A stretch of DNA of 31,784 nucleotides, taken from IMG/VR virus record IMGVR_UViG_3300032163_000070, positions 1 through 31,784 of that record; one strand, written 5' to 3'. Source of the stretch: a virus. The position numbers and the translations under genes are program-made. The notes under the pieces are model-generated. The model saw nothing but the letters and a program-made list of their open reading frames with translations. It was not told where the DNA came from and did not search any database. Position 1 is the first letter of the stretch; each line of letters starts with the position of its first letter. Shown here one piece after another: positions 16,334 through 26,584 of this stretch.

Positions 16334-16362
16334 TTGACAAGAATATTTTTGTTTTATATAAT
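16334..16362 (+). promoter_or_regulatory. Consensus sigma70-type promoter
   Basis: TTGACA at 16334-16339, 17-base spacer, TATAAT at 16357-16362: a perfect match to the vegetative consensus. Transcription would start near 16369, just before arm A of the structured leader. This is the strongest promoter in the window. Confidence 0.85.
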
Positions 16363-16370
16363 AAAGGTTA

Positions 16371-16514
16371 CGAGAGGCAAAAAATGAACAGAGTTAAAAT
16401 GGTTAAAATTATGGGCGAAGAAAAAACTCTTCGTCTTTTTTATTGCCTCTCGTCGGTGTCTGTGCCTCTCAAGACCAGACAAAAGCTCTGTTCAACCGGC
16501 GGGAGGCCTTTATT
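16371..16514 (+). promoter_or_regulatory. Structured leader upstream of the replication protein gene
   Basis: Arm A CGAGAGGCAA (16371-16380) and arm B TGAACAGAG (16385-16393) are followed by an intrinsic terminator, then A' TTGCCTCTCG (16443-16452, full 10-bp complement) and B' CTCTGTTCA (16486-16494, full 9-bp complement). A second partial copy of A' (TGCCTCTC, 16463-16470) lies between them. The order A, B, hairpin, A', B', ribosome site is the same as in the leader at 13704. Arm A also contains the ribosome site of a 44-codon leader reading frame. Confidence 0.55.
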
Positions 16515-16518
16515 ATGA
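16384..16518 (+). CDS. 44-codon leader open reading frame
   Basis: ATG 16384 has AGAGG (within arm A) 6 bases upstream; the stop TGA at 16516-16518 overlaps the start codon of the replication gene (ATGA). The product (MNRVKMVKIMGEEKTLRLFYC...) has no recognised family. The frame spans the terminator and both complementary arms, parallel to the 38-codon frame in the endolysin leader. It may be a leader peptide coupling translation to the next gene. Confidence 0.3.
   Translation: MNRVKMVKIMGEEKTLRLFYCLSSVSVPLKTRQKLCSTGGRPLL
16414..16441 (+). terminator. Intrinsic terminator inside the leader
   Basis: GGCGAAGA (16414-16421) pairs with TCTTCGTC (16428-16435, one G-U pair), loop AAAAAC, followed by six T at 16436-16441. 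It would end transcripts from the 16334 promoter after about 73 bases, leaving a short RNA carrying arms A and B. Confidence 0.6.
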
Positions 16519-16916
16519 ATGATGCGCGCTACTTTACCCACGATGATAACGCAAGAAACGATCCCAAAATTAAGGCACTAATGAAAAAATATGGTGTTGA
16601 GGGTTATGGAAGATTTTGGATTATTGTTGAAACAATGAGGGCAACAAGGGGGCAGAAAATCAACATAAAAGAATATGTCTTAGAATCCCTTGCTGAAGAA
16701 ATGAAGTGCTCTACTGATGAAATAAAAAGATTTTTAGATGATTGTGTTAAATTTGACCTTTTTGTCAAAGAGGGCGATTTTTATTATTCAGATTCACTTT
16801 TGGAAAGATTATCTTATTTAAAGCATTTAAGGACCGCAAAGCAACGCGGGGCTTATGCAATGCACGAAAAGTATGGACATAATATTACAAAAGAACCAGA
16901 TGATCTTGATCAATGA
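16515..16916 (+). CDS. Lin1244/DUF4373-like replication-associated protein
   Basis: 133 residues from ATG 16515 (GGGAGG site at 16501-16506). The sequence RYFTHDDNARNDPKIKALMKKYGVEGYGRFWIIVETMRATRG at about 4-46 is the signature opening of the Lin1244/Lin1753-like N-terminal domain found in phage DnaD-like replication initiators. The winged-helix-like domain continues to residue ~105 (YVLESLAEEMKCSTDEIKRFLDDCVKFDLFVKEGDFYYSDSLLERL). Most family members have a further C-terminal domain; this one stops soon after, so it may be truncated or a short variant. An in-frame upstream start at 16443 lies in the leader and has no ribosome site. The next 130 bases are a candidate origin. Confidence 0.7.
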   Translation: MNDARYFTHDDNARNDPKIKALMKKYGVEGYGRFWIIVETMRATRGQKINIKEYVLESLAEEMKCSTDEIKRFLDDCVKFDLFVKEGDFYYSDSLLERLSYLKHLRTAKQRGAYAMHEKYGHNITKEPDDLDQ

Positions 16917-17045
16917 TAAGTATCAATATGATATCAATATCAATAGATATAATAGATACATTTACTTATCTATTTACTTATTTACTTATTTAAGCATGCA
17001 TAGCAAAGCATATGCAATGCACTTGCAATGCAGTAAGGTATTGAA
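16917..17045 (+). other. Candidate replication origin: AT-rich iteron region
   Basis: Non-coding stretch right after the replication protein gene. It contains three TATCAAT (16921, 16932, 16938), three TTTACTTAT (16961, 16973, 16981) and two TGCAATGCA palindromic units 11 bases apart (17013, 17024), with GCATGCATAGCAAAGCAT just before. AT-rich repeats with helical-turn spacing beside an initiator-like gene are what phage origins look like; not proven. Confidence 0.4.
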
Positions 17046-19247: not shown

Positions 19248-19383
19248 AGGCACTTGCCCTAAATGTGGCAACGAAATAATCGGCACAGATCATTGGGAAG
19301 AAGGAAATATTGTGATTATGGGCTTTTGTGATAAATGCCAATTGCATTATAGCGAGGATGAAATTGACTGGGAGGAGAAATGA
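19231..19383 (+). CDS. 50-residue zinc ribbon protein
   Basis: MERKFKGTCPKCGNEIIGTDHWEEGNIVIMGFCDKCQLHYSEDEIDWEEK: two knuckles CPKC and CDKC 24 residues apart make a classic zinc ribbon. ATG 19231 has a GGGGAGGAG site. Its stop overlaps the start of the next gene. Possibly nucleic-acid-binding or protein-binding. Confidence 0.55.
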   Translation: MERKFKGTCPKCGNEIIGTDHWEEGNIVIMGFCDKCQLHYSEDEIDWEEK

Positions 19384-19910
19384 TGAAAAAGAAAATCATT
19401 ACTAAAGAATGGCTACAAGAGAAATCAGCATGTGCAAGCGGAGTGGATTGGTTTGACGCCCAAAAAGATACCGACGCAGTAAAAGTTTTGAAGAAACTAA
19501 TCAAAGAAGATAAGCTGGGTTGGGCTAACTGGACAATTTGTCGTGTATTTGATTACAAACAAAGAGTGCAATATGCCGTATTTGTAGCAGAGCAGACGAT
19601 TGACTTATATGAAAAGGAATATCCGAATGATAAAAGACCAAGATTAGCAATTGAGGCGGCTAAGAGATGTATAGAAAATCCAAGTAAAGAAAATAAGGCT
19701 GTTGCCAATGCCGCCGCCTATGCCGCCGCCTATGCCGCCTATGCCGCCGCCTATGCCGCCTATGCCGCCGCCTATGCCGCCAATGCCGCCGCCTATGCCG
19801 CCGACTATGCCGCCAATGCCGCCGACTATGCCGTCTATGCCGCCGCCAAAAAAGAAATGAAAGTTAAAATACTAAACTATGGAATAAAACTTTTGGAAGA
19901 TAATGATTAG
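19383..19910 (+). CDS. Imm5-like protein with Ala/Tyr repeat tract
   Basis: 175 residues from ATG 19383 (GGAGG at 19371-19375, 7-base spacer; the ATG at 19380 is 4 bases from it). The N-terminal ~105 residues (KEWLQEKSACASGVDWFDAQKDTDAVKVLKKLI...YPNDKRPRLAIEAAKRCIENPS) resemble the Imm5-type group, in which 'P.D.RPR.AIEAA..' precedes Ala-rich helices. Residues 108-155 are almost wholly AAY/AAN/AAD units and end in a basic helix. Immunity proteins neutralise toxins; a phage copy could be antitoxin or anti-defence. The family is inferred from pattern recall, not a search. Confidence 0.45.
   Translation: MKKKIITKEWLQEKSACASGVDWFDAQKDTDAVKVLKKLIKEDKLGWANWTICRVFDYKQRVQYAVFVAEQTIDLYEKEYPNDKRPRLAIEAAKRCIENPSKENKAVANAAAYAAAYAAYAAAYAAYAAAYAANAAAYAADYAANAADYAVYAAAKKEMKVKILNYGIKLLEDND
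19704..19847 (+). repeat. In-frame GCC-rich microsatellite encoding Ala/Tyr repeats
   Basis: 48 codons in which every Ala is GCC, interspersed with TAT, AAT and GAC codons in units such as GCCGCCTAT and GCCGCCGCCTAT. G+C is far above the flanks, whose Ala codons are mixed. The pattern indicates expansion by slippage, with length probably variable between phage copies. Confidence 0.85.
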
Positions 19911-19986: not shown

Positions 19987-20081
19987 TATCTAAAATTTTA
20001 TTTATAATTTCCATTTTTTGTTGTTATTGTGCCTTTGTTTTGATTGTGGCGGGATTTTGCGGGATGAATGATGATAAATAA
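19980..20081 (+). CDS. 33-residue single-span membrane peptide
   Basis: ATG 19980 has a GGGGG site close by. MVISKILFIISIFCCYCAFVLIVAGFCGMNDDK: a Cys-rich hydrophobic helix (residues 5-28) and a short acidic tail. Its end overlaps the start of the thiamine-diphosphate enzyme gene, so it may be coupled to that cassette. Function unknown. Confidence 0.4.
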   Translation: MVISKILFIISIFCCYCAFVLIVAGFCGMNDDK

Positions 20082-20679
20082 ACAGCAGTTAATTGATTTT
20101 GAAACTTTAGTAATTAAGGAATTTGAACAAGGGCATATTAATTGTCCAATTCATCTGTCTGGAGGAAATGAGGATGAACTTATAGATATATTCCAAAATA
20201 TTGATTCTAAGGATTATGTTATATCTACTCATAGAAATCATTATCATTATTTGCTCAAAGGTGGTGATCCGCAAGCTTTAATGGCAGAACTTAAGGGGAA
20301 AAAAGAGGGTTGTTGCTATGGGCATGGCCGCTCTATGCACATATATGACCCGGATATAAATTTTTATACATCTGCTATTGTAGCGGGTGGTTGTGCTATT
20401 GCTTGTGGGTTAGGATTAGCAGGGAAACGAACATTCTGTTTTCTTGGTGATGGAACGGAAGATAGCGGACATTTTATTGAAGCAATTAGATTTGTCGAGG
20501 GGCGCAATTTACCAGTATGTTTCATTATTGAAGATAATGGTATTGCGGTAGAAAGTAAACATGCCGATAGATGGGGGAAATTTGCTAACAGTGCTTTTTA
20601 TGATTCAAAAAAAGTAATCAGGTATTCATATAAACGAATTTATCCGCATGTTGGTGTAGGGAGGCATATTAGTTTTTGA
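20068..20679 (+). CDS. Thiamine-diphosphate enzyme, alpha (PP-domain) subunit, E1-alpha-like
   Basis: 203 residues. Clear match to the N-terminal core of 2-oxoacid dehydrogenase E1 alpha: STHRNHYHYLLKGGDPQALMAELKGKKEGCCYGHGRSMHI (53-92), SAIVAGGCAIACGLGLAGKR (102-121) and the ThDP/Mg motif GDGTEDSGHFIEAIRF...FIIEDN (GDG 127-129, Asn157). Full E1 alpha is over 300 residues; this stops after the cofactor domain. With the beta subunit next door it could form an alpha2beta2 enzyme that cleaves or transfers two-carbon or acyl units from a 2-oxo acid or ketose. No E2 or E3 gene is visible. ATG 20068 or 20071 is the start; TGATG overlap with beta. Confidence 0.82.
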   Translation: MMINKQQLIDFETLVIKEFEQGHINCPIHLSGGNEDELIDIFQNIDSKDYVISTHRNHYHYLLKGGDPQALMAELKGKKEGCCYGHGRSMHIYDPDINFYTSAIVAGGCAIACGLGLAGKRTFCFLGDGTEDSGHFIEAIRFVEGRNLPVCFIIEDNGIAVESKHADRWGKFANSAFYDSKKVIRYSYKRIYPHVGVGRHISF

Positions 20680-21191
20680 TGATTTATAAAGACAGGCTTA
20701 CAGAAGATATGGAATGGTTAGCAAAGCAATCTAATACCATATTCTTAGGCGAAGGAATTATTAACGCCGGCAGGATTTATGACACATTAGATAAAGTATC
20801 ATTAGAGAAATGTATTGAAATGCCGATTGCCGAGAATTTAATTGCCGGTAGTGCTATCGGTTTAGCTATTGCGGGCTACAAGCCTGTTGTAATATTTCAG
20901 CGTATGGATTTTATGCTTATTGCCGCAGACGCCATTATAAATCACATGGCCTTAATACCGAAAATGAGTGGGGGTAAGGTTAAGTTACCAATTATCATAA
21001 GAGCAACCATAGGCTCAAGGGATAAAAAATTTGATTGCGGCCCGCAACATAACCACGACTTTAGGCATATATTTTCGCCTTACATAACTACATTTGATTA
21101 TGAACAGGGAATTTATGAAGTCGCTTATAACAGAAATGAGCCAGTTTTAATTGTGGATGATAAAGATTTATACGAAAGGAATGTAGATTGA
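20679..21191 (+). CDS. Thiamine-diphosphate enzyme, beta (Pyr-domain) subunit, E1-beta-like
   Basis: 170 residues from ATG 20679 in a TGATG overlap with alpha (a TTG at 20676 is less likely). IFLGEGI, CIEMPIAENLIAGSAIGLAIAGYKPVVIFQRMDFMLIAADAIINHMA (45-92) matches the E1 beta Pyr domain; Glu52 occupies the position of the Glu that activates the cofactor's aminopyrimidine ring. KLPIIIRATIGSRDKKFDCGPQHNHDFRHIF corresponds to the 'G.GP.HSQ' active-site region, here with His residues. The C-terminal domain that dimerises and docks E2 is absent, so this is a minimal stand-alone enzyme and not a pyruvate dehydrogenase part. Confidence 0.8.
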   Translation: MIYKDRLTEDMEWLAKQSNTIFLGEGIINAGRIYDTLDKVSLEKCIEMPIAENLIAGSAIGLAIAGYKPVVIFQRMDFMLIAADAIINHMALIPKMSGGKVKLPIIIRATIGSRDKKFDCGPQHNHDFRHIFSPYITTFDYEQGIYEVAYNRNEPVLIVDDKDLYERNVD

Positions 21192-22009
21192 AACCGATAA
21201 TATTACCGGAAAATTATAATTATATCGCGGCATTTCTTACCTTGTGCTGTAATCTTAATTGTGATTATTGTATTAATAGGCAAGGGGAATTTAAAGTTTC
21301 TGAAGAGATGTCAGGTAAGGATTGGATAAAAGGGCTTTTAAGGATACAAACACGAGAAGATTTGTCGATTACTTTGCAAGGCGGCGAGCCGACTTTGCAT
21401 AAAGATTTTTATGAAATAGCCGGTAAGCTATATGATAAAAATAAGAAAATGGATTTGTTGACTAATGGCTTATTTGATGTAGGGGAATTTTGTAATAAAA
21501 TATCTCCAAGTGTATTTGAGCGCGAGGCTAAATATGCGAGTATCCGTTTCAGTTACCATGCCAATACAAACATGCAAGCGCTTATGGCTAAAGTGTGGTT
21601 ATTACAAATACGCGGTTATAGTGTAGGAATTTGGGGATTAGATAATATTGACAATACAGAAATTCAGGATTTTTGTAAGTGGTTAAATATAGATTTTAGG
21701 GTTAAGGAATATCTTGATAAAACGCATGGCACTTATAAATATCCAAAGGCATTAAATGGTAGGTTAAAAAAGGTGTTATGCAAGCCAAGCGAGTTATTGA
21801 TAAATCCTGTCGGTTATATTTTTCGTTGCCACGCCGATTTATACGCAAACCGTAATCCCATAGGCCATATTCTTGCAGATGAGATTACTTTTCCCGATTA
21901 TCTGCCATGTGATTATTTTGGGGCATGCAATAGTTGTGATATAAAATTAAAGACAAACCGTTTTCAGGAATACGGACATTGTAGCGTAATTATTGAGGGG
22001 GTAGAATGA
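21188..22009 (+). CDS. Radical SAM protein 1 with C-terminal Cys cluster
   Basis: 273 residues, TTG start overlapping the beta stop (ATTGA) with AAGGA 9 bases upstream. Radical SAM motif CNLNCDYC (Cys21, 25, 28), SAM-binding GGEPTLHKDFYEIAGKLYD (65-83), TNG at about 91-93, and a C-terminal region LCKPSELLINPVGYIFRCHADLY...CDYFGACNSCDIK...GHCSV with at least six Cys, like an auxiliary SPASM/twitch cluster. Such enzymes modify peptides or sugars by hydrogen-atom abstraction. Substrate unknown; context suggests a glycan precursor or a protein side chain. Confidence 0.85.
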   Translation: MKPIILPENYNYIAAFLTLCCNLNCDYCINRQGEFKVSEEMSGKDWIKGLLRIQTREDLSITLQGGEPTLHKDFYEIAGKLYDKNKKMDLLTNGLFDVGEFCNKISPSVFEREAKYASIRFSYHANTNMQALMAKVWLLQIRGYSVGIWGLDNIDNTEIQDFCKWLNIDFRVKEYLDKTHGTYKYPKALNGRLKKVLCKPSELLINPVGYIFRCHADLYANRNPIGHILADEITFPDYLPCDYFGACNSCDIKLKTNRFQEYGHCSVIIEGVE

Positions 22010-22034
22010 AATATGGGTATATTTAGGAGAAAAC

Positions 22035-23096
22035 ATGGATAAATGGTTAATGGACTCAAACAAACTTTTATGGCATCCTGATCGTTTAAAGGATTTCCAG
22101 GATGGTAAACGAATTATGCCCATTTTAATTGATATAGGAATTCATAAAGGATGCAATATAAAATGTGTTTATTGTTATGGGATAAAGCAAACAAGGGGTA
22201 TGGCATACATTCCTGAAGATAGACTTTTAATGATGGCTGAAGATGCTAAAGAAGTCGGAATAAAAGCGATAGCTATTATTGGCGATGGTGAACCGTTAAT
22301 GAATAAAGGATTATACCCATTTGTGAAGAAACTTAAAAGATTAAAGATAGATTGTGGTGTGGCTACAAATGGATTGTTGCTCGATTTTGACAAATTAACA
22401 ACACTAACCTCTTCATGTACTTGGCTTAGATTTAATATATCTGGGGTAGATAAATACGAAAAGATTATGGGTGCTCCATTGGGAAGTTTTAAGAGATTTG
22501 AGGTTATTATTAAAGATGCAGTTTATTATAAATCAAAATGTACAATAGGATTACAAGCTGTTCTTATTCCAGATGGGTTTAGTGAGATTATCCATTTAAC
22601 AGAAAAGGCGATAGAATGGGGAGTAGATTATTTGGTGATTAAGCAATTCTCTGATGGTGGCGAAGGTATGCCAATGCACTTTGATATGGATGATTATGAT
22701 AAAGCTACAAAAGATTTGAAGATAGCTGAGTCTATGACAACAGATAAAACTCAGATTATAGTGAAGTGGGAAGCTATGAAGGATAGCCGAAATATAACTA
22801 AGAATAAGAAATGGGAGTTTGATAGATGTTTAGACTTACCATTCTTATTCCAGATTTCAGGAGATGGGGGTTGTTATCCTTGCGGATTTCTCTTTGGAAA
22901 TAAAGATTATTGTTACGGTAATATCAAGGAAGAAAGGCTTATTGATATACTTTATTCGAAAAAGTATTGGGATATTATTAAGACGATTGCTAAAACTCCG
23001 TTAGATAAACTTTGTAAAGGACAATGCCGTCATTGTAAGATTAACAAGTTCATTTGGGATTATTTACATAAACCAGAACATATTAATTTTATATAA
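22035..23096 (+). CDS. Radical SAM protein 2 with SPASM domain
   Basis: 353 residues, GGAGAAAAC site before the ATG. Motif CNIKCVYC (Cys40, 44, 47), then IGDGEPLMNKGLYPFVKKLK (GDGEP in place of GGEP), ATNGLLL, and a C-terminal SPASM-type region: DRCLDLPFLFQISGDGGCYPCGFLFGNKDYCYGNIKEERLIDILYSKKYW...LCKGQCRHCKIN, with the typical 'C...C.....G.N..E......' spacing of auxiliary [4Fe-4S] ligands. SPASM enzymes act on peptides, alcohols and sugars. Low G+C like the rest of the phage. It abuts the next radical SAM gene exactly. Confidence 0.88.
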   Translation: MDKWLMDSNKLLWHPDRLKDFQDGKRIMPILIDIGIHKGCNIKCVYCYGIKQTRGMAYIPEDRLLMMAEDAKEVGIKAIAIIGDGEPLMNKGLYPFVKKLKRLKIDCGVATNGLLLDFDKLTTLTSSCTWLRFNISGVDKYEKIMGAPLGSFKRFEVIIKDAVYYKSKCTIGLQAVLIPDGFSEIIHLTEKAIEWGVDYLVIKQFSDGGEGMPMHFDMDDYDKATKDLKIAESMTTDKTQIIVKWEAMKDSRNITKNKKWEFDRCLDLPFLFQISGDGGCYPCGFLFGNKDYCYGNIKEERLIDILYSKKYWDIIKTIAKTPLDKLCKGQCRHCKINKFIWDYLHKPEHINFI

Positions 23097-24506
23097 ATGA
23101 GAGTTTTAATCATAGCTCCAAGATATAAGTCTTTCGGTCTGTATTACGAGCTTCCCCTGGGCCTCGCTTATATCTCCGCATATCTGAAATCCAAAGGGGT
23201 AGAAACTACCCTTTACAACCTGAATGAAGTGGTAAACGATAACGGGTTATGGGATCATATCAAGCGGGTCGATGTTATCTGCTCTGGAGGCCTGTCCGTC
23301 CATTATGGGGAGATGAAACGCCTGCTTGATAAAGTGCGCCGGGTAAATCCTTCCGCCAAGATAATCTTAGGCGGAGGGTTGTTAAGTTCAGAGCCGGAGC
23401 TTATGATGTCAATGCTCCACCCGGACATAGGCGTAATCGGAGAGGGCGAGATCGCTTTATATGACGCGGTTGTGAATATGCCTTCATCCGGCTCAATAGT
23501 CAAAGCCGAGCCGATCAAGAACTTAGACGCTTTGCCTTTCCCGGATTATGAGGGGTTAGGTGTCCGCGCATACCTTGAGCGCCAGATTGCCGGAGATGAA
23601 CATTATCTCTACCCCTTTGACAATCCGCGCTGCCTGCCCGTAATATCGAGCCGTTCTTGCCCGCATAACTGCTCATTCTGTTTTCATCCTTTAGGCAAGG
23701 TTTACCGCCAAAGGTCTTTGGATAATTACTTTGCCGAGATCGAGTTATTGATCGAGAGTTACCAGATAAACATGGTCGCGGTATTGGATGAGCTTATATC
23801 TGTATTCCCGGAACGCATTAACGAGTTCTGCGTTCGCATAAAGAAATACAGCCTGAAATGGATGACGCAAATGCGCGTGGACAGCGTAAACCAGGATACG
23901 ATCAATATGCTTAAAGACGCGGGATGTATTCAGATAAGCTACGGGATAGAGCATATCAACAAGGAAGTCCTCAACAATTATAATAAGCGTATTACCCCGG
24001 AACAGATCGAGAAAGCGTTAGAGATGACTTATAATGCCGGGATAGGTATTCAAGGCAATATGCTTTTAGGCGGGCCGAAAGAAACCCCGGAATCTGTCGG
24101 GCAAGTACTGGCATGGCGCAATAAGAACTTGAAATATCATATCAATATAACTCCTATTACCGCTTACCCCGGGACTGACCTTTACATCTACGGGAAGTCT
24201 TGCGGAAAAATAGACGGGCGTTCTTTTATCGAGCAAGGTTGCCCGTTCATCAACTTTAACAATGCCCCAGTGAATTTCCCGGTTGAGTTTATTTATTCAG
24301 ATAAATCAAACTTTACCCCGGCAACTGATGATCCTTACCGGGGGCAACTTTTCCAACTCGAGGCTGTCTGCCCACATTGTAAATATGAAAATCTTTATAA
24401 AAACATATTCAAGTCGGGAACGGCTTTATCATTTACCCAGGGTAAGGCTTACAGGATAGCTTGCCGGAACTGCAATCAGAGGTTTGATATGAGGTTAGAC
24501 GGATGA
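23097..24506 (+). CDS. B12-binding-type radical SAM protein (class B-like) with zinc ribbon
   Basis: 469 residues. N-terminal Rossmann B12-binding-like domain (MRVLIIAPRYKSFGLYYELPLGLAYISAYLKSKGVETTLYN ... LGGGLLSSEPELMM...GVIGEGE; no DxHxxG, so base-off His binding is not assured). Radical SAM motif CPHNCSFC (Cys188, 192, 195), then a TIM-barrel region (QMRVDSVNQDTINMLKDAGCIQISYGIEHIN; MLLGGPKETPESV). The C-terminal ~40 residues carry CPHC and CRNC, a zinc ribbon. Codons are visibly richer in G+C (about 45-50 percent) than the flanks (about 30-35), marking recent transfer. Members methylate or rearrange unreactive carbons. ATGA overlap with the next gene. Confidence 0.85.
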   Translation: MRVLIIAPRYKSFGLYYELPLGLAYISAYLKSKGVETTLYNLNEVVNDNGLWDHIKRVDVICSGGLSVHYGEMKRLLDKVRRVNPSAKIILGGGLLSSEPELMMSMLHPDIGVIGEGEIALYDAVVNMPSSGSIVKAEPIKNLDALPFPDYEGLGVRAYLERQIAGDEHYLYPFDNPRCLPVISSRSCPHNCSFCFHPLGKVYRQRSLDNYFAEIELLIESYQINMVAVLDELISVFPERINEFCVRIKKYSLKWMTQMRVDSVNQDTINMLKDAGCIQISYGIEHINKEVLNNYNKRITPEQIEKALEMTYNAGIGIQGNMLLGGPKETPESVGQVLAWRNKNLKYHINITPITAYPGTDLYIYGKSCGKIDGRSFIEQGCPFINFNNAPVNFPVEFIYSDKSNFTPATDDPYRGQLFQLEAVCPHCKYENLYKNIFKSGTALSFTQGKAYRIACRNCNQRFDMRLDG

Positions 24507-25231
24507 AATTATTGACAATATGTCCAAGCCGGAATAGGCCAGAGTTATGTAAAAGGATGTTGGATAGTTTTGATAAAACTAAAAGTGAATGGTCGAATAT
24601 AATTGTCTATGTATCTGTTGATGACCCGCAAATAGGCAAATATGAGGATATTTTGAACGGGCGGTTACATATTTTTGGGCCACGCCGCACATTAGTAGAA
24701 GTTATTAATTATGTATCCTGCGAATATATGTCTGCTATTGCCTATTATCAGGAAGTGAATGACGACCATATCTATATTACCGACAAATGGGATGAGAAAT
24801 TGATAGGCAAGATTGAATATGGCGGTAATAAATTCGGTATGGCTTGGGGAAGGGATGGGATGAATAATAATGACAATCCTAATCTGCCGACTGCTGTAAT
24901 TGTATCTGGAGAGATAATCAAGGCATTAGGATATTTCTTTCCGCCTCATCTAAAACATATTGCCTGCGATGACGCACTTTTAGATATAGGCAATAAGACT
25001 AAGACTATATTTTATAATCCAGAAGTTACTATTGAGCATATGCATTATTATGCCATTGTGAATAATAAGCATAAGGCTCCTTTAGATGATAATTACAGGT
25101 CAATATATAATGAGGCGACTTTAAAAGAAGGTAGGCAATTGCTTCACGAATGGCGCAGTAATAATATGGAAAAAGACATAGAAAGGGTGAAAAATGCAAT
25201 CAAAAATTGGCGTGCTAATCAGGTGTTATAG
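24503..25231 (+). CDS. Glycosyltransferase A (GT-A-like)
   Basis: 242 residues, starting in an ATGA overlap. N-terminus MKLLTICPSRNRPELCKRMLDSF is the nucleotide-binding strand-helix; IIVYVSVDDPQIGKYEDIL and AYYQEVNDDHIYITDKWDEKL (NDD at 86-88, DxD-like metal site) follow, then SGEIIKALGYFFPPHLKHIACDDALLDIG (acceptor region with CDD) and VTIEHMHY. Paralogue of the enzyme at 25886 with the same motifs throughout. Soluble, no membrane span. Likely transfers a nucleotide-activated sugar in the same pathway as the radical SAM enzymes. Confidence 0.78.
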   Translation: MKLLTICPSRNRPELCKRMLDSFDKTKSEWSNIIVYVSVDDPQIGKYEDILNGRLHIFGPRRTLVEVINYVSCEYMSAIAYYQEVNDDHIYITDKWDEKLIGKIEYGGNKFGMAWGRDGMNNNDNPNLPTAVIVSGEIIKALGYFFPPHLKHIACDDALLDIGNKTKTIFYNPEVTIEHMHYYAIVNNKHKAPLDDNYRSIYNEATLKEGRQLLHEWRSNNMEKDIERVKNAIKNWRANQVL

Positions 25232-25889
25232 CATTACGGATTATCTACCGTATTTACTTAAAAATTATGCTTGGGTAGATAGGATTGTAGTTATGAACTA
25301 TCGGTTTACATCAGCCGAACCAAGAGAAGATGATACTGAAGAAGTTGTAAAAGAATATATTGATAAATGTTTTGAAAATTTGAAAGTGCCTAATATCCAA
25401 TTAAATAAAGGCGAAGGCTTAAAGCAACATGCGATATTAAACAAGGGGTTAAAACTTTTATCCGATTGTGATATTGTTTTCATTTCTGATGCTGATGAGT
25501 TTATGACGCAGGGTGCTATGCGGGATATAGCGATTAAGATGATTGAGGATGATAAGAATTTAGGATATGCCAAAATTATTGATTATGCTTTTGATTTCTA
25601 TCATCGTTTTGATAATAGACATCTTAGCGGGGCTTTGGTTGTGGTTAAACCGCAGGAGATAAAGTTTAAGCACATCCGGCAACCGCAGGATACCAATTTA
25701 AGGAAGATACAATTTGAGCATATCTTATACCACTTTGGGTTTGTGTTGCCGCCTGAGACTTTGAAATGGAAACTGCAATGGGAGAGCAAGGAAGAAAAAT
25801 TAGATATAGTTAAGGGAATTGGCGAAACAAACATAGTTTTAGCCAAACCTCCAGACAAGGAAATTATGGAACTTTTAGATGAAGAATGA
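25194..25889 (+). CDS. Glycosyltransferase B (GT2/GT92-like)
   Basis: 231 residues; ATG lies 38 bases inside the end of enzyme A, with GAAAGGGTG upstream. Features: KIGVLIRCYSITDYLPYLLKNYAWVDRIVVMNYRF, KGEGLKQHAILNKGLKLLSDCDIVFISDADEFM (DADE at 99-102 as the metal-binding site), then SGALVVVKPQEIKFKHIRQ and EHILYHFGFVLPPE. It resembles the GT92/GT2-type 'glycosyl transferase family' proteins and is not a close relative of enzymes A and C. It overlaps enzyme C by 4 bases. Confidence 0.78.
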   Translation: MQSKIGVLIRCYSITDYLPYLLKNYAWVDRIVVMNYRFTSAEPREDDTEEVVKEYIDKCFENLKVPNIQLNKGEGLKQHAILNKGLKLLSDCDIVFISDADEFMTQGAMRDIAIKMIEDDKNLGYAKIIDYAFDFYHRFDNRHLSGALVVVKPQEIKFKHIRQPQDTNLRKIQFEHILYHFGFVLPPETLKWKLQWESKEEKLDIVKGIGETNIVLAKPPDKEIMELLDEE

Positions 25890-26584
25890 GATTACTTACT
25901 ATTTGCCCCTCGCGCGATAGACCGGAATTATGCAAGCGCATGCTTGATAGTTTTAATGCTACAAAATCTAAAGATACCGAGATAATAGTTTATGTGGCGG
26001 ATGATGACCCTCAATTAGATAAATACAAGGAGATATTAAATGACATTAATCATATAATCGGTTGGCGCAGGTCTTTAGTTCAAGTGCTTAACTTTATTTC
26101 AACTGACCGATACCCGGGTGTATTTTATTATCAAGAAATTAACGATGATCATATTTACCTGACTAAGGGTTGGGATAGGATTTTAATAAATACCATAGAG
26201 GCAGAGGGCAAGGGTTGGGGGATAGCTTGTGCCAATGACTTAATGACTAATGAGCCGTGGGAAGTGGCCCGGCATCCAAGTGCGGCAATTATATCTGGGA
26301 ATATAGTAAGGACTCTTGGTTATTTTGTATTGCCAGAGTTAGAGCATTTATATACTGATACTTATTTACGGGATATTGGAGAGGGGATTAAGGCATTATT
26401 CAGGCTTGAGGGCGTAGTGATTGAGCATTGCCATTGGCTTTCAAACAAGGCGGTAAAAGAAGCCTATGTTGCTGTATATGACCAAGAGAAATTTAGGGTT
26501 GCTTATCGTGTATATCATAAATGGATAAAATATCAACGAAAATTAGATATTGAGAAATTGCTTAAGGCAAGGGATGGGTTATAA
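25886..26584 (+). CDS. Glycosyltransferase C, paralogue of A
   Basis: 232 residues. MRLLTICPSRDRPELCKRMLDSFNATKS, IIVYVADDDPQLDKYKEIL, FYYQEINDDHIYLTKGWDRIL and SGNIVRTLGYFVLPELEHLYTDTYLRDIG align one-to-one with enzyme A, so A and C arose by duplication with B inserted between. The acceptor region differs (YTDTYLRDIG against ACDDALLDIG), suggesting different acceptors or order of addition. Last gene of the cassette. Confidence 0.78.
   Translation: MRLLTICPSRDRPELCKRMLDSFNATKSKDTEIIVYVADDDPQLDKYKEILNDINHIIGWRRSLVQVLNFISTDRYPGVFYYQEINDDHIYLTKGWDRILINTIEAEGKGWGIACANDLMTNEPWEVARHPSAAIISGNIVRTLGYFVLPELEHLYTDTYLRDIGEGIKALFRLEGVVIEHCHWLSNKAVKEAYVAVYDQEKFRVAYRVYHKWIKYQRKLDIEKLLKARDGL

Follow-up and report, generated by a model that had tools for sequence, protein, structure and literature searches.

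Plasmids such as R1 (copA/tap/repA) and ColIb-P9 control their copy number with an antisense RNA that is transcribed from the opposite strand. A ribosome that covers a terminator can prevent termination, as in attenuation, and overlapping stop and start codons couple the translation of one reading frame to that of the next. In other systems the antisense RNA and its target come from the same strand. In phages P1 and P7, C4 RNA is processed by RNase P to a trans-acting RNA of ~77 nt (PMC5320573); the annotated order at c4 of phage P1 is promoter P1c4, a1, b1, C4 RNA, a2, b2, icd, ant. The CI RNA of P4 pairs with seqA upstream and with seqC downstream, and early termination shuts off the replication genes (PMC4825925). 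IsrK of Gifsy-1 is a terminated RNA for which activation of the read-through mRNA from the same promoter, by way of a coupled small ORF, is proven (PMC4825925).

Here we describe an element upstream of a replication-initiation-like gene (rep) in a virus record of 31,784 nucleotides (IMGVR_UViG_3300032163_000070), the whole of which we refer to as the window. The element is very probably real, and very probably a self-targeting antisense switch of a known kind in a previously undescribed form. Judging from its sequence, we consider it likely that rep is under same-strand antisense control of the C4 (P1), CI (P4) or IsrK kind (probability about 0.72).

Results

Architecture of the element

The window is from a tailed phage, with terminase, portal and tail genes. 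Relatives of its terminase are less than 33% identical, and a search of the phage collection for closely related DNA found none. Downstream of rep, a 176-aa ORF (19380-19910) encodes a long alanine/tyrosine repeat (AAYAAYAAAYAANAAA), and a gene block at 20068-26584 looks metabolic by eye, with a split transketolase-like pair, CxxxCxxC radical-SAM-like enzymes and glycosyltransferase-like proteins. Directly behind rep, at 16910-16995, lie repeats rich in AT, both direct and inverted (ATTTACTTAT(C/T)TA and TATCAATAT), that are a possible replication origin.

Table 1. Positions in the window of the element's features and of the gene that follows
Feature	Position	Strand	Evidence or remark
Sigma-70-type consensus promoter, TTGACA-17-TATAAT	16334..16362	+	12/12 match
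Arm A, ACGAGAGGCA	16370..16379	+	Holds leader Shine-Dalgarno GAGAGG (16372-16377)
Leader ORF, 44 aa	16384..16518	+	ATG in arm B region; encloses terminator and module
Arm B, TGAACAGAGTT	16385..16395	+	Start-codon region of leader ORF
Predicted intrinsic terminator, 9-bp stem and T run	16413..16440	+	Stem at 16413-16436
Putative antisense module, C4-like, with 13-bp closing stem P1 (16445-16457 / 16495-16507)	16445..16507	+	Fold -28.6 kcal/mol, z -3.4
Hairpin P2 (16458-16462 / 16476-16480)	16458..16480	+	Sequence, fold; loop carries TGCCTCTC
Arm B partner, AGCTCTGTTCA	16484..16494	+	Single-stranded, 3' of P2
rep Shine-Dalgarno, GGGAGG	16501..16506	+	Within 3' strand of stem P1
rep, replication-initiation-like gene	16515..16916	+	Lin1244_N PF14297 E 1.3e-16; phrog_2562 E 1.9e-13

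An earlier note on this DNA had proposed that a consensus promoter is followed by a terminator that ends the RNA after about 73 bases. We find both features (Table 1), the promoter being the only perfect one within the record, and the predicted transcription start at about 16369-16370 should give a short RNA of about 68-72 nt. The proposal of a terminated short RNA is thereby supported. The same note had described two stretches of the short RNA, A (10 bases) and B (9 bases), as complementary to sequences past the terminator. These pairings extend further than was claimed. Arm A pairs with 16444-16453, within a full match of 11 nt (ACGAGAGGCAA/TTGCCTCTCGT, partner 16443-16453), and the core of arm B, TGAACAGAG (16385-16393), pairs perfectly with 16486-16494, growing to 11 pairs, including one G-U, over 16484-16494. 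The order A, B, A', B' is crossed, as the note had it, and the two arm pairings support the bipartite antisense relation that it suggested.

The segment after the terminator is a 63-base module in which stem P1 encloses one hairpin and one single strand, the latter being the partner of arm B. The hairpin loop repeats the partner of arm A as TGCCTCTC (16463-16470), which is complementary to 8 nt of arm A (16372-16379). Across the loci studied, most lowest-energy folds omit the loop pairing because the folding excludes pseudoknots; under that restriction, arm A of the window prefers the P1 strand. Module-leader pairing in the window is better than in all but 2 of 500 shuffles, and the window had the top score when both strands of 2.9 Mb were scanned for a terminator, a closed module and arms. 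We did not find a second target (a2/b2) at the rep start, where shuffles were as good in 410 of 500 cases.

The leader ORF has arm A as its ribosome site and starts at 16384, and its stop codon overlaps the rep ATG (ATGA, 16515-16518). Since the frame encloses the terminator, a translating ribosome could block termination, and since it ends on the rep start codon, translation of rep may be coupled to that of the leader. The frame from the arm-side ATG to the start of the next gene is likewise open at four of the other loci described below. The chance of an open frame in dinucleotide shuffles is 0.12 for the window, 0.039 for L001, 0.28 for L068, 0.070 for L209 and 0.20 for L212, with a product over the five frames of 1.7e-5 for the start codons as chosen. 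A sixth locus, L418, has a similar leader frame, with its stop four bases ahead of the next ATG. The leader peptides differ between loci, suggesting that it is the openness of the frame that is kept rather than the peptide sequence.

Phages with a related rep gene

The nearest rep relative among the viral contigs (L001; 59% identity) shows this layout in the orthologous position, although pairing played no part in its selection. A perfect promoter is followed by a Shine-Dalgarno sequence CTTTAGGAGAG, then ATGAACACAGA, a terminator ending TTTTTTATTGCC, and a module closed by a 17-bp stem (fold z -3.7); a 50-aa gene lies between the element and rep. A P2-type hairpin occupies the same position as in the window, and its loop, TCCTAAAG, is complementary at 8/8 positions to the Shine-Dalgarno stretch CTTTAGGA, while TCTGTGTTC is complementary at 9/9 positions to GAACACAGA. 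The earlier note had named arms that fail to pair in related phages as evidence that would speak against its proposal; in L001, both arms have changed in sequence relative to the window and both are still paired. A MAFFT alignment of the two loci is structurally senseless, as the arms differ, and pair counts on it were left out. L001 was also the sole true case recovered with the pattern ATGAAC...CTTTTTTATTGCC.

A more distant rep relative (L068; 49% identity) has a 5' hairpin loop, CGAGAA, facing the module loop TTCTCG as potential kissing loops, and GGCTAAC at the start codon facing GTTAGTC, with a module fold z of -3.5. Its arms are short, and the duplex energy is not significant (76/500 shuffles). 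Duplex energy is in general a weak test, in which the leader/C4 pair of phage P1 itself is not significant. The element is missing from the rep relatives L067 and L069-L088, and thus does not follow the rep gene. In known phages with a related rep (L089-L092), the annotated operons are tightly packed, leaving little room for such an element.

These relatives bear on the main rival to repression by the module, namely activation of the kind proven for Gifsy-1 IsrK, where a leader ORF is also coupled (PMC4825925). Here, the short RNA would act in trans, with arm A displacing the 5' strand of stem P1 and thereby freeing the rep ribosome site. The pairing of arm A with the P1 strand (11 nt, -18.3 kcal/mol) is indeed the lowest-energy one in cis and in two-strand folding, both pseudoknot-free, and the rep Shine-Dalgarno does lie in P1. 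However, the match between arm A and the P1 strand is missing in L001 and L068, which share with the window only the loop pairing, and in neither of these two loci does P1 contain the next gene's ribosome site. We therefore consider activation by the short RNA unlikely. The earlier note had taken the P1 strand as the partner A' of arm A, but this is a stem strand of the window and is not kept in the relatives; the partner common to the window and L001 is the hairpin loop (16463-16470 in the window).

Unrelated viral loci with the same layout

In viral contigs, we searched for promoters with a T run and ATTGCC lying 60-90 bases further on, and obtained at least 162 non-redundant loci. The ATTGCC junction belongs to the scan pattern and is independent evidence for the window and L001 only. 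Moreover, the scans favour consensus promoters and this junction, such that they underestimate how frequent and widespread such elements are. As a control, each leader was compared both with the stretch that follows it and with mismatched stretches from other loci. Complementarity of at least 9 nt was found in the own pairs of 11 of the 162 loci listed, against 2.9 expected from mismatched pairs, and complementarity of at least 12 nt in 4 of the 162, against 0.10 expected. Given this control, the compensated arms of L001 and arms of 12-14 nt elsewhere, it is highly improbable that a Shine-Dalgarno sequence happens to match a stretch resembling an anti-Shine-Dalgarno close to a standard promoter and terminator, even though arm A, being a ribosome site, is of a kind that finds partners in many pyrimidine stretches. 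Two candidates, L149 and L357, were rejected: their complementarity of 10-11 nt stems from sequence that is locally rich in AT or is coding, and a closed module is missing. When genome contigs were scanned with the promoter/terminator pattern, no further locus was convincing; L297 is the leader of a cold-shock gene.

The layout, with unrelated arm sequences, recurs at nine other viral loci, in most cases ahead of replication genes: the two rep relatives L001 and L068, and seven from the promoter-terminator scans (L209, L212, L403, L418, L477, L482 and L486), all of which have a closed module. Their arms measure 10 + 8 nt (L209), 9 nt (L212), 14 nt (L403), 12 nt (L418), 8 + 9 nt (L477), 13 + 8 nt (L482) and 14 nt (L486); in L212 and L418, only a single arm is clear. 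The promoters of L001, L209 and L212 are perfect, like that of the window, and we read those of L403, L482 and L486 as Bacteroidetes-like from the sequence TAnnTTTGC. The next gene is replication-related in the window, L068, L212 (phrog_9474), L418 (where a 27-aa ORF precedes a DnaD-like helicase loader) and L477 (a DNA primase). A 35-aa ORF follows in L209, and small genes without an assigned function follow in L403, L482 and L486. That unrelated phages share a layout with entirely different pairing sequences makes it very probable that the switch is real. Separately, the stem of the leader terminator in L418 (1310-1347) matches Rfam abiF RNA (RF03085; 50.1 bits, cutoff 37), which is linked to AbiF abortive-infection systems.

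The layout at these loci also bears on two readings that do without a diffusible RNA. In the first, a single pseudoknotted 5' leader would control leader and rep translation, or attenuation, purely in cis; the crossed order of the arms in the window, L001 and L477 could indeed form a double pseudoknot in one molecule. In L209, L403, L482 and phage P1, however, the arms are collinear. Phage P1 has a second target copy downstream. At the start of the next gene, a second target is clear in L403, L482 and L486 and partial in L001 and L209; the copy of the A target there is perfect or almost perfect in L403, L482, L486 and L209. Collinear order together with a second target copy points to a separable antisense RNA, and we regard a purely cis-acting leader as doubtful. 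In the second, the structures would act as DNA, as an origin or as single-strand hairpins bound by Rep. A replication initiator adjoins the element, with AT-rich repeats just behind it, but a promoter, a terminator with a T run, and paired arms that include ribosome sites and start codons are features of RNA, and the layout also precedes genes other than initiators (L403, L482, L486 and icd of phage P1); we consider this reading very improbable.

Relationship to the Rfam C4 family

The earlier note had likened the locus to c4 while stating that it does not match c4 in sequence. Indeed, a 201-nt query from the window matched neither C4 (RF01695) nor c4-a1b1 (RF03163) at E<=10, and an Rfam search at permissive thresholds gave only chance matches. 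None of the nine other loci has an Rfam C4 match either, whereas phage P1 scores 68.8 bits for C4 and 51 bits for c4-a1b1. Among these nine are the C4-like loci at L403 (- strand, promoter at rc 5781), L482:3054 and L486:4221, which have perfect target copies both upstream and downstream; the small proteins of unassigned family encoded downstream in L482 and L486 begin MKDSISLQRTAKQSA and MKETISLERTAKQSA, respectively.

The likeness in layout goes beyond what the note had claimed, as c4 of phage P1 likewise runs from promoter through a1, b1 and terminator to C4 and the controlled gene. We read the hairpin ACCGCA...TGCGGTATTTTTG, between b1 and C4, as terminator-like. The c4 CDS once annotated in phage P1 (X15639, 120-320, corresponding to L372 3268-3468 and NC_005856 48267-48467) extends from b1 across this hairpin and C4 and ends four bases short of the icd start codon. 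Rfam C4 loci were found in 12 of 229 Gammaproteobacteria genomes and, leaving L384 and L397 aside, follow the order of phage P1 on inspection, usually with a T run directly before C4. A leader ORF that runs through is not general among canonical C4 loci, being mostly missing there. Each of the three Nitrosospira genomes tested (G005, G006 and G007) has one or more Rfam C4 matches.

Discussion

By parallel with C4 and CI, the short RNA is probably the target or decoy (a1/b1), and the folded segment after the terminator is probably the antisense RNA. This reverses the roles assigned in the earlier note, which are not supported. We infer that the promoter would yield mostly a terminated RNA of ~70 nt carrying the leader's ribosome site and start codon, and that read-through would add the module (16445-16507), whose loop and 3' strand could pair with these two sites, either in cis or, once processed, in trans. 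With the pairing in place, the leader would go untranslated and the terminator would be uncovered, stopping transcription early; in addition, no ribosome would arrive at the rep start and the rep ribosome site would be locked in stem P1, such that rep would be off. If leader translation escaped, the ribosome would melt the terminator and the module and finish at the rep start codon, switching rep on. More copies of the phage would mean more module RNA and a tighter shut-off, as expected of copy-number or immunity control.

There may be a separate class of same-strand antisense control of phage replication initiators, in which a leader ORF overlapping the initiator has its ribosome site and start codon clamped by crossed arms, which lacks the C4 P2 hairpin, and which extends beyond the Rfam C4 groups to phages with Bacteroidetes-like promoters. 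We advance this only tentatively, at somewhat less than even odds; such a class would have branched off distantly from C4 or have been invented independently. Our data suggest that control by an RNA that targets its own leader, in the style of C4 and CI, is far wider than the curated family, indifferent to the sequence and order of the arms, and often tied to replication initiators. This provides a testable rule by which immunity or copy-control RNAs that escape sequence and covariance models may be found, and the loci offer a natural setting in which to examine the effect of arm topology on recognition between RNAs.

Among known systems, R1 and ColIb-P9 resemble the window in coupling translation of a leader ORF to that of a replication initiator, as we propose for rep. 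Their antisense RNA comes from the opposite strand, whereas the window needs none from there. The IsrK/orf45/anrP locus shares with it a terminated RNA and a read-through mRNA from one promoter, a coupled small ORF, and a terminator flanked by segments that are complementary to each other; however, the small ORF of IsrK starts after the terminator rather than before it, and activation has been shown for its short RNA. P4 CI, compared with the window by inspection, resembles its putative antisense RNA in that antisense RNA and an upstream target lie on one transcript and replication genes are controlled, a replication gene being downstream in the window too. The targets of CI lie on both sides of it, whereas in the window only the upstream target is clear.

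The window also resembles C4 of phages P1 and P7 in layout. C4 has stem P1, a UUCG-type P2, a P3 with the b' loop, and a' single-stranded after P3, whereas the window and L001 have stem P1 and one hairpin only, the UUCG P2 hairpin being missing. Pairing in C4 is collinear (a1-b1 / b'-a'), but crossed in the window and L001, with the loop arm facing the first target and the 3' arm the second. The window also differs in having no a2/b2 at the next gene, which is a replication initiator rather than icd/ant. Nonetheless, the window and the nine other loci share with C4 the succession of promoter, targets, terminator, module and controlled gene, and the window also has two short targets and a closed module with one putative antisense arm in a hairpin loop and the other in a single strand 3' of the hairpin. 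Arm A of the window occupies the position of a1 in C4 systems, and phage P1, like the window, has an ORF that runs from the target through the terminator and the antisense RNA.
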